From NCBI GenBank assembly GCA_963854735.1, contig OY978100.1:1798001-1862000 (forward strand): a stretch of DNA of 64,000 nucleotides, given 5' to 3'. Position 1 is the stretch's first letter; each line of letters opens with the position of its first letter. The notes beneath the pieces were generated by a model. The model did not search any database. It was not told the DNA's origin and worked only from the letters and a program-made list of their open reading frames with translations. Of the stretch, positions 44,665 through 47,429 are shown in pieces. Source of the DNA: Marvania coccoides (lineage: Eukaryota; Chlorophyta; Trebouxiophyceae; Chlorellales; Chlorellaceae). Both the position numbers and the translations under genes were made by a program.

Positions 44665-47429
44665 ATGGGGGACTCTGCAGAGGCTGGGGGGAGTGGCCAC
44701 CCCCCCCCCGCGCGTCTCGCTGAGGAGGTGCCACCGCCAGAGCCGCCCGATACAGAACAAGAGCACGGGCACGGGCTGGCCAAGAAAGAGAAGGACACGC
44801 ACTGTCTGATCACGAGACAGACCGGGCCGAGCTGCTGGAGGAATCAAGAGGTGGCGGCCGAGCTCTTGCTCGCATCAGAGGTAGTCACACAGGTGAGCCG
44901 CGGTTTTGAGTAGAACTGAACATCTTTGATTGATCTTTCACCCACGGCCACGCGCCAACGCCCTGCACGCTGCACGCTGCTAACCAATTCTTCTCCCCCC
45001 TCCCCTCCCCGCAGTCCCGCATCATCGGGTGCGAGGTGTTGGTCTTCCACGTTCTTCGCTGCATCGAAGCCAGTGCCGCTGCCACTGCCAATGGCACCAC
45101 CGTGGATCCCATCGACAAGCTGGAGGTCATCAACAGCAACACCATCCGCCGCGCCTTCATGGCGCCGCTCCACGGCCACGTCAAGACAGTCCCTGGCGTG
45201 CAGGACGACCCCGCCCTCCACCACTCATTCAAGTTGTACAAGGAAATGGACGGAGCTGCTGCCGCCATCAAGTACTGCCATGACAGGCACGAGCCCTACA
45301 TGAAAGAGATGATGAACGTGGTGGCCAGCGATTTCCACACCAACATCAAGACCCACCTGTCTAGGAACACGTGGCGGTACACTCTGAAGTGGCTAATGCT
45401 GAAGCTCGTCAAGAAGCGCGATGCAACCCAGGACTTCTTCTACCTCACGGAAACCCATGCGCGCGCAAGGTCTGCGGCGCATGCCATGCGGAAGGCCGCC
45501 TTCTCCGGGGACGGCCGCCTGGAGGTCGTCGTGGACAACTATTCGTCGCTGGCCCACACCCCCCAGAGGGAGCGCGAATGGATGGCCACCGTGGTGAACA
45601 CCGTGCACACCGAGCTCAAAGCCAGCGGCCTGCGCCTCCCCTACACCTGGCTCCACAGCGACGAGGGCAAGTTTGACGACGAGGAGGCGCTCAAGGTCCT
45701 TCCCTGGCTGGCCAAAATGGCTGAAGACATGCGCAGCGACTTGGAACAGCCGCAGCATGCGCCTGGGCCTGAGTACGAGTATGATTCTGACGAGATGGAG
45801 GAGAGCGGTGCTGCTGCTGCTGCTGCTGCTGCTGCTGCTGCTGCTGCTGCTGCTGCTGCTGCTGCTGCTGCTGCTGCTGCTGCTGCTGCTGCTGCTGCTG
45901 CTGCTGCTGCTGCTGCTGCTGCTGCTGCTGCTGCTGCCACCACCTCCCGGGCCCAGCCCCGCAAATGGCGCGTGCGTGGCCGCTGTACCGTGGCGATTTT
46001 ACCCATGCCCAGCACCAAGCGCATCCACGTCCCTGTCTGGGGAGACACCATGGCGAAGGTGGCGCATGCTGCGGCGGTGAGGATGGGCGGGGACGCAGGC
46101 GAGGCCTGGCGTCACAGTGTAGCCCCACCAGGCGTGATTACCACAACCCAGGAGTTCTGGACGCCGCTGCTCGACCTGGGGCGCGTCCACACGTCCAAGC
46201 GGCTGGAGTTTGCCCGCTTCCTCCGCACCGACGGAAAGCACGTTGCCTTGAACTTCAAGCGGGAGCTCACAGATGTGGAGCGCATAGCAGCAGCGGCCAC
46301 CCGGGCCGTGAAGGAGGCCACAAAGAAGAATCCCAAGCTGTGGACGAGACTGGGGACGGCAAGCGCGACAGGGGCGGAAGACGCCATGGCCCAGGTGTTC
46401 AGTGGGGTGGGCGAGGACGCGGTTACAGCCATGGAGGGGTTCCGCACCCACCTGATTACCACCGCCAGAAGGATGACGGGCTTGGGGCCTAGAGGTCTGC
46501 CGCCGCCCTATCAGGACCTGGAGTGGGTACCGGTGCTGCCGCCTGGTACCCGCGTCTGCGGCCTGGACCCCGGCCGCTTAAACATCATGACGGTGGCGGA
46601 TTTTGACCTGTCCGCCGCCAACAATCGCAAAGCCCCCGCCACCGCCGCCCACGGCCCACCCGCCGCTGCTTCCCCCAAATTCCCGGCGCGTTCGTGGTCC
46701 GCCGGCGAATACTACCATGGCATGGGCTTCACCTGGGGGGCCCAGCAGTGGCAGAACAGCCTGCGCTCCGACCGCGGCAGGCCAACGCGGACGTACTTCG
46801 ACCGCCTGCGCACCACCCCTCGCAGGGTGGGCACCCTGGCACACTTCACAACACACTTGAACGAGGCCCTGCGCACCCGCCCCGCGGTGCGCCCCTTCAC
46901 CATGCGGCCAGCGTGGGCCAGGAACGACTGGTACGTCAAGCGGCGCTCCAACAGCTTCCTGGACCAAATGGCGAACGACGTGATGCGGGGCGAGAAGACC
47001 AGCCGCCGGGCCCCTGGCGAGCCTGTCCCCCGGCGCATGCCCACCGTGATCGCCCACGGCGCGGCCCTCCCTGGGCAGATCATCGGCACGGCTCCCGTGG
47101 GCAACCAGCGCCTCTACCACGCCCTGGCGCGGCGCAGGGGGGCCCACGAGCCGGTGTGCTTGGTGGTCCCCATTGACGAACATTGCAGCTCCCGCGACTG
47201 CTACGCCTGTTCAACCAAAATGAAACCCACTCCCTCCCCCGAGCACCGCAAGCGACAGTGTGATCACACTGCATGCATTCGCTTCCAGCGCAATATCGAC
47301 AGGGATGTGAACGCGGCGATCAACATCATGCTGTACCTGCTGTGCGAGCTACACAACTGGCCCCGCAGCGCATTGGTACGGCCTAGGCCTCCTCCTTCGC
47401 CGGGCGGCGGCGGTGGCGGCGGCGGATGA
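44665..47429 (+). CDS. Fanzor, eukaryotic TnpB-like RNA-guided nuclease
   Basis: Two exons: 44665-44892 and 45015-47429; 880 aa, phase 0. The C-terminal half has the RuvC-fold nuclease signature: RuvC-I CGLDPGRLNIMTVADFD (Asp594), a glutamate in VPIDEHCSSRDC (Glu798) at the shifted position described for Fanzors, a zinc ribbon (Cys805, Cys808, Cys825, Cys830) and RuvC-III NIDRDVNAAINI (Asp840). All three acidic residues are present, so it may be active. The N-terminal half is helical (KTHLSRNTWRYTLKWLMLKL) as in large Fanzor1 proteins. Residues 342-384 are 43 consecutive alanines. The tail is Pro/Gly-rich. Fanzors use a guide RNA from the 3' flank of their gene to cut DNA and are usually carried by transposons. 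Only the intron separates an acidic, Pro-rich N-terminus from the conserved part. Confidence 0.85.
45810..45935 (+). repeat. Trinucleotide repeat (GCT)42 inside the Fanzor gene
   Basis: 126 bases of pure GCT, followed by one GCC, encoding 43 alanines between the acidic YEYDSDEMEES and TTSRAQPRKW. The opposite strand is (AGC/CAG)n. The purity implies recent expansion and likely length variation. Confidence 0.97.

Follow-up and report, generated by a model that had tools for sequence, protein, structure and literature searches.

Gene structure and host

The window, by which we mean the whole 64-kb stretch of DNA analyzed, carries on its forward strand a gene predicted to encode a protein of the Fanzor1 type. 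Joining 44665-44892 to 45015-47429 produced an 880-aa frame with no internal stops and no frameshifts, bearing out the initial annotation, which had described an apparently intact 880-residue Fanzor in a green-algal genome. The three RuvC acids it had named are D at 594, E at 798 and D at 840, and the four zinc-ribbon cysteines are present as C805, C808, C825 and C830. The features of the gene are as follows.

44665..44892, + strand: predicted exon 1, residues 1-76
44893..45014, + strand: predicted intron, GT...AG, present in the second copy of the gene with a 7-base length difference
45015..47429, + strand: exon 2, residues 77-880 and the stop codon, with REC, WED, RuvC and TNB
45809..45937, + strand: GCT/TGC repeat encoding a 43-residue poly-alanine tract (26 residues in the second copy)
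46566..46568, + strand: RuvC-I acid D594, in the DPG motif
47178..47180, + strand: glutamate E798 in the shifted (alternative) position, six residues ahead of C805
47199..47276, + strand: zinc ribbon C805, C808, C825 and C830 (C-x2-C, x16, C-x4-C), matched by PF07282
47304..47306, + strand: RuvC-III acid D840 (RDVNAAINI)

The single intron claimed earlier, 44893-45014, starts with GT and ends with AG, and its splicing is a prediction. The exon-2 frame is also open upstream of 45015, and the first in-frame ATG available without the intron is residue 125; the first residues of exon 2 were aligned by MAFFT with an N-terminal stretch of a known Fanzor1. Since exon 2 offers no ATG before residue 125 and Fanzor1-like sequence runs from its start, splicing is favored, and we infer that the intron is real. 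The GC content at the three codon positions of exon 2 downstream of the poly-alanine tract (0.63/0.57/0.82) is coding-like. The tract itself lies between the REC-aligned and WED-aligned parts of the protein. Both the tract and the second copy of the gene were absent from the initial annotation.

Six RuBisCO small-subunit matches were found on three nuclear contigs, consistent with the earlier assignment of the DNA to a green-algal genome. A RuBisCO small subunit encoded in the nucleus marks the green lineage and occurs as well in algae whose secondary plastids are green; the host nucleus thus appears to fit a green-lineage origin. Four RuBisCO small-subunit matches, in both orientations, lie inside 10 kb at G000:C7:351572-361242. 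Elsewhere in the window, positions 3627-4893 hold a tandem array of 5.6 copies of a 228-bp unit (99% matches), which by eye resembles a polyubiquitin gene.

Family motifs and zinc ribbon

A profile search for the TNB zinc ribbon gave 27.1 bits for PF07282 (Cas12f1-like TNB zinc ribbon) against a cut-off of 26.3, just above it, and this was the sole Pfam family over its cut-off; for comparison, the giant-virus Fanzor1 L067 scored 28.7 bits. NCBIfam and PHROG gave weak TnpB matches at the C-terminus, and upstream of the zinc ribbon neither Pfam nor NCBIfam returned a convincing family.

The available text of PMC10711439 describes DPG at RuvC-I as a Fanzor feature and places the Fanzor catalytic glutamate six residues before the zinc finger. 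Both arrangements occur here, as D594-P-G and as E798-HCSSRD-C805. Only one of the 105 stop-to-stop ORFs of at least 150 aa in the window, the Fanzor gene, matched the long Fanzor/TnpB motif D-X(125,275)-[TS][TS]-xx-[C4]-X(5,50)-RD (PMC3627910, as available to us), and the same single ORF matched a stricter motif combining DPG and the shifted glutamate. No match to either motif was obtained in 20,000 shuffles of the last 496 residues. The expressions used allowed C-x2..4-C in the second zinc knuckle. The expression given for Fanzor-like IS607 TnpBs in the available part of PMC10711439, DPGx(120-160)ExxxxxxCxxCx(12-18)CxxCx(4-8)D, did not match, as the window protein departs from it in spacing and in having a C-x4-C knuckle; the expression was designed for TnpBs and not for Fanzor1, and L067, by its residue numbers, would also miss its spacing.

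A second knuckle of the form H-x4-C-x4-C, with a histidine five residues before the first cysteine, is common to the window protein, SpuFz1, PpFz1 and GtFz1; this feature is our own unpublished observation on the three solved Fanzor1 proteins, and L067 has the C-x4-C without that histidine spacing. A loose C-x4-C expression also fits 10 of 50 phage TnpB ORFs, themselves selected by a CxxC pattern. These came from a DNA pattern search, which yielded 52 stretches and 50 phage-TnpB-like ORFs matching at the protein level, and were left out of the Fanzor1 evidence. No serine resolvase (IS607 TnpA) was found in the genome at E ≤ 0.001, in a search whose control was positive in 10 of 14 genomes. The C-x4-C knuckle with its histidine, together with the lack of a genomic serine resolvase match, points to the Fanzor1 sub-type rather than Fanzor2.

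Sequence divergence and profile controls

Likeness to Fanzor1 beyond the zinc ribbon was supported by profile controls, while direct comparisons were weak or negative. In a large protein set, searched through common 5-residue words, residues 312-790 of the exon-2 protein had no match at E ≤ 0.01 among the 8000 candidates scored (those with most words in common), and residues 706-790 drew 16 candidates, none at E ≤ 1. A phmmer search of the PDB matched no Fanzor, and hhalign against Fanzor1 gave probabilities of 0.8% and 2.3%. Against viral contigs, the window protein produced 1 pattern match and the mixed alignment A3 produced 36, with 0 confirmed in either case. BLASTP against L067 gave E 0.037, at the DPG stretch. 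The L067-family HMM scored the window protein at -3.1 bits, a value that lies among those of 1000 shuffles (best 1.0); this model is narrow, as it scores most TnpB ORFs low too. With L067 as the query, nothing was retrieved from the host genome at E ≤ 10, and both Fanzor copies were missed. A protein search of the host genome with the window protein returned, besides these copies, three weak rows at E 0.026-0.069, of which two overlap the poly-alanine region. Phage and other matches at about residues 190-450 of exon 2 were discarded as due to poly-alanine. As direct comparison, whether with single sequences or with databases, gave weak matches or none, the protein must be regarded as very divergent.

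L067 had been found on one viral contig through the DNA pattern V-D-E-[YF]-R-T-S-x-x-C-x-x-C, within an open 671-aa frame. Of the 8000 proteins scored against it, 1183 reached E ≤ 1e-5, and the 120 listed were 82-95% identical to the query, so that the set holds little diversity. A profile (A1) that combined L067 with 31 relatives from this list of 120 matched three PDB sequences at E ≤ 1, namely PpFz1 (3.8e-45), SpuFz1 (4.8e-41) and GtFz1 (5.2e-29), which identifies L067 as a true Fanzor1. In MAFFT alignments, the landmarks were paired NNIKxH with TNIKxH in REC, then VDPG with LDPG, DEFRTS with DEHCSS and RDVNGA with RDVNAA; WED was poorly aligned in alignments A2 and A3. An HMM of four Fanzor1 lineages (ten sequences) gave the window core 8.5 bits, compared with 6.6 for the best of 2000 shuffles, a signal that appears real but not large.

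A stronger, transitive test used a giant-virus profile in which L067 was combined with 14 relatives from the list of 120, with GtFz1 left out and then scored as joined segments. When the window protein joined the profile, the GtFz1 score rose from 100.6 to 125.6 bits; with the second copy alone it reached 109.7, and with both copies 120.2, while 80 shuffles gave 54.5-102.9 bits. With the PDB tool, addition of the window protein raised GtFz1 from 99.9 bits, split over three stretches, to 120.9 bits in a single stretch, and PpFz1 fell from 157.6 to 149.7 and SpuFz1 from 139.2 to 136.1. Scrambles, which preserve composition only, lowered the GtFz1 score when applied to REC (24/24), WED (24/24), RuvC-I to the insert (23/24), RuvC-II/TNB/RuvC-III (24/24) or all but the last part (24/24). 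Because scrambling any part lowers the score, similarity extends beyond the zinc ribbon, and the result suggests that it is spread over REC, WED, RuvC and TNB.

A competing identification would make the gene an unrelated zinc-ribbon protein, for example a relative of ribosomal eL40, and it draws on the same PDB search, in which the RuvC part matched a ubiquitin-eL40 fusion at E 3.5e-4 with no Fanzor beside it. The match to such fusion proteins covers 46536-47384, and the last 86 residues alone give E 0.07; we attribute it to the zinc ribbon and chance. The eL40 Pfam model scored 9.9 of the 23 bits required (E 0.9), whereas PF07282 passes its cut-off, and the ordered Fanzor motifs and the scrambling controls also speak against kinship with eL40, which we consider scarcely credible. 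Taken together, PF07282, the DPG, shifted-glutamate and RD motif, the zinc knuckle and the scrambling controls uphold the Fanzor identity first proposed, and the protein is best supported as a real, very divergent Fanzor1.

A compact unit with a second copy

The genome (22.46 Mb, 15 contigs) contains two TNB matches, the second being a copy of the gene on another contig at G000:C1:993871-996880, whose alignment with the window copy spans 3061 columns and shows 5 mismatches and 3 gap openings. As copies were counted by DNA and protein searches of the genome, two is a lower bound. The shared stretch consists of the gene with about 165 bases 5' and about 120 bases 3', and is sharp at both ends; outside it, window positions 40001-52000 match the 9.5 kb around the C1 copy by simple repeats only. 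The two proteins differ at A39T, K173T and V178M and in the length of the poly-alanine tract (43 versus 26); the 496 residues after the tract are identical, and both frames are open. The Fanzor gene fills the unit, in which no transposase reading frame of note was found. The locus is thus a small, transposase-less, recently copied unit, with the following additional features.

44501..47553, + strand: whole copied unit, about 3.05 kb, with a right boundary that may be 47543 (CTAG) or 47553
44501..44522, + strand: left end, G-TC-GAAGTC..., found genome-wide at ≤3 mismatches only at the two copies
47430..47553, + strand: 3' non-coding part of the element, where a guide-RNA scaffold would be expected by analogy with the available text of PMC10432273
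47519..47543, + strand: right-end hairpin followed by CTAG, Helitron-like, found at ≤3 mismatches only at the two copies
47554..47573, + strand: flank, a putative guide source on family knowledge if the element ends at 47553

Since neither end occurs elsewhere in the genome at ≤3 mismatches, no end-only copies of the kind that SpuFz1 has were seen. An imperfect 23-nt inverted repeat (43437-43459/47645-47667, 83%) was considered as the element ends and dropped, because the stretch common to C1 stops inside the repeat. Just upstream of the element is a run of 32 C at 44279-44310. A 468-codon open frame at 41435-42841, 1.7 kb upstream, may resemble an EnSpm/Plavaka-type transposase; it had no Pfam match at E ≤ 0.01 (best E 0.46), and has two partial relatives on contig C3 at 32-33% identity and none near the C1 Fanzor copy.

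Possible modes of movement

How the unit was copied can be read in more than one way. Helitron ends are described as a 5'-TC start and a 3' hairpin followed by CTRR, and Chlamydomonas Fanzor1 elements CRe-1, 2 and 3 as non-autonomous Helitrons, in the available part of PMC3627910. Here, the right-end hairpin, with a 3-nt loop and a stem paired at 8 of 9 positions, has CTAG directly after it, and at gap 0 neither strand of the window offers another such site; TC lies one base inside the left end; and the genome search found one Helitron rep gene (C3:2198330-2198964). The unit might therefore be a non-autonomous Helitron that carries Fanzor1 and is mobilized by the genome's one Helitron. Set against this, the hairpin had been noticed before the test, and a gap of ≤12 nt gives 13 and 16 sites per strand; the shared stretch continues for ten bases past the hairpin and CTAG, and those ten bases are common to both copies; the ends are flanked by G and by C or T where A and T would be expected; and an imperfect 8-bp repeat is present at the boundaries of C1 alone. 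Similarity downstream of the Helitron rep gene stops near C3:2202096-2202107, where a hairpin and CTACTAG, with T next, can be read by eye and the ends are not firmly defined; comparison of the element ends with that Helitron's region gave only short, chance-level matches. The right end is accordingly suggestive only, and with these contrary points on ends, flanks and the C1 repeat, movement of the Helitron type is kept as a tentative possibility at clearly less than even weight. The region around the rep gene (L072/L073, G000:C3:2190500-2210300) contains several open frames in repeat-bearing surroundings.

No target duplication was found at the window copy, and no target duplication or left-flank motif is common to the two copies. 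A candidate 8-bp duplication that sits exactly at the C1 boundaries and contains one mismatch was set aside, since with shifts 256 of 2000 shuffled flank pairs were its equal. A search for hAT transposases had no match in the genome and was equally empty in control genomes, hence uninformative. A second copy that arose by ectopic recombination or segmental duplication, and not by movement of an element, would agree with the presence of only two copies, the absence of a visible terminal inverted repeat and the missing target duplication at the window copy. We judge this unlikely, as the gene is shared together with its short 5' and 3' margins, up to sharp ends, between unrelated flanks.

Were CTAG (47543) the true end of the element, the guide would presumably be read from the bases after 47543, and over the first 10 of these the insertion sites of both copies agree at 9, (C/T)TTCCTTCTT. 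A guide-seed match might on this basis have chosen or licensed the second site, which would amount to RNA-guided homing or transposition in a eukaryote; the left sides of the two sites lack a common motif, and the simpler reading makes these ten bases part of the element. We consider guide-licensed insertion very improbable. The reading that we prefer, and hold to be probable, is that a compact mobile element of about 3.05 kb, lacking a transposase, carries a Fanzor1 gene and is present in two recent copies in a green-lineage nucleus.

Comparison with known Fanzor systems

One close resemblance is to Guillardia theta GtFz1 (PDB 9cer), which has the same EH...S..C glutamate-zinc motif and H-x4-C-x4-C knuckle, and whose score rises when the window protein joins the profile, whereas those of the two fungal Fanzor1 proteins do not. 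According to the available text of PMC10432273, the GtFz1 locus has no clear inverted repeats or transposase, as is the case here. GtFz1 has N as its third catalytic residue (PMC11423790, as available), in place of D840 in the window protein, which also differs in its 43-residue poly-alanine tract. Spizellomyces punctatus SpuFz1 (PDB 8gkh) shares the D-E-D triad, the shifted glutamate and H-x4-C-x4-C. Its acids are given as D383, E541 and D606 (PMC10432273, available part), with spacings of 158 and 65, compared with 204 (D-E) and 42 (E-D) in the window protein. That source describes the SpuFz1 element as lacking its own transposase, as here, but with inverted repeats and many copies including ghost copies; here there are two copies and no further ends.

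The Chlamydomonas elements CRe-1, 2 and 3, compared by description only, likewise concern intron-bearing Fanzor1 genes of a green alga on non-autonomous elements (PMC3627910, available text). They have Helitron ends, set beside the Helitron-like right end here, and occupy tens to hundreds of loci with 5 to 10 exons, in contrast to two copies and two exons. Auxenochlorella, a green alga with a genome of about 22 Mb, also carries a Fanzor; there it is the most abundant repeat and genome GC is 63.9%, in the available part of PMC12633428, whereas here there are two copies. The GC content of 2-kb windows across the 64-kb stretch ranges from 45% to 66%. TnpB and Fanzor2 resemble the window protein in the D-E-D RuvC and zinc ribbon, and in the weak C-terminal TnpB matches, but the window protein is much longer, has a C-x4-C second knuckle, and comes from a genome without a serine resolvase match.

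Fanzors are in print for Chlamydomonas, Volvox, Chlorella, Auxenochlorella and Chloropicon, and the window copy was not met in the available portions of this literature on algal Fanzors (PMC3627910, PMC10432273, PMC10711439, PMC11423790, PMC12633428). The kind is therefore known and the member new, and we make no claim of priority.

Guide RNA, proposed mechanism and significance

In Fanzor1 systems, the 3' end of the RNA, derived from the flank, serves as the guide; a short motif lies 5' of the target, and RuvC makes the cut (PMC10432273 and PMC11423790, available parts). No unusual RNA fold was detected at the 3' end of the element, where 47430-47553 gave z +0.95 and 47370-47543 z +1.60 against shuffles. 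Rfam returned no family over its gathering score, with 7 rows mostly on the alanine-codon repeat (best isrG, E 9.2e-12, 52 bits where the gathering score is 100).

These RNA results also fit a Fanzor1 that no longer works, with a frame still open because the copies are young and with the nuclease or the guide RNA lost. The expansion of the poly-alanine tract would agree with such decay, as would the three protein differences outside it, all of them amino-acid changes with no sign of selection among so few. The acids, DPG and zinc cysteines are nevertheless retained, and the 496 residues past the poly-alanine are identical between copies; we regard loss of function as somewhat unlikely, though with appreciable weight. 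For a working Fanzor1, RuvC nuclease activity of the D594/E798/D840 site is inferred from these conserved residues.

By analogy with the family, we propose a mechanism in which the protein would bind an RNA from the element's 3' end and the sequence just downstream. The RNA-loaded protein would find matching DNA adjoining a short motif, and the D594/E798/D840 RuvC site would cut it. A cut at an empty sister or allelic site could lead repair to copy the element back, so that the element is retained. Movement to new places would depend on a transposase in trans, for which one of the Helitron type may be the best available candidate.

The role of a Fanzor in the life of its own element has been called unknown in the available text of PMC10432273. 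A recent, two-copy, transposase-less element with open frames in a 22-Mb genome would provide a simple case in which to examine empty sites, the guide RNA and copying. The protein shows how far Fanzor1 sequences can drift, having been missed by direct searches. Its membership is supported by a profile of few lineages and by the second zinc knuckle, which may help to find other Fanzor1 proteins.
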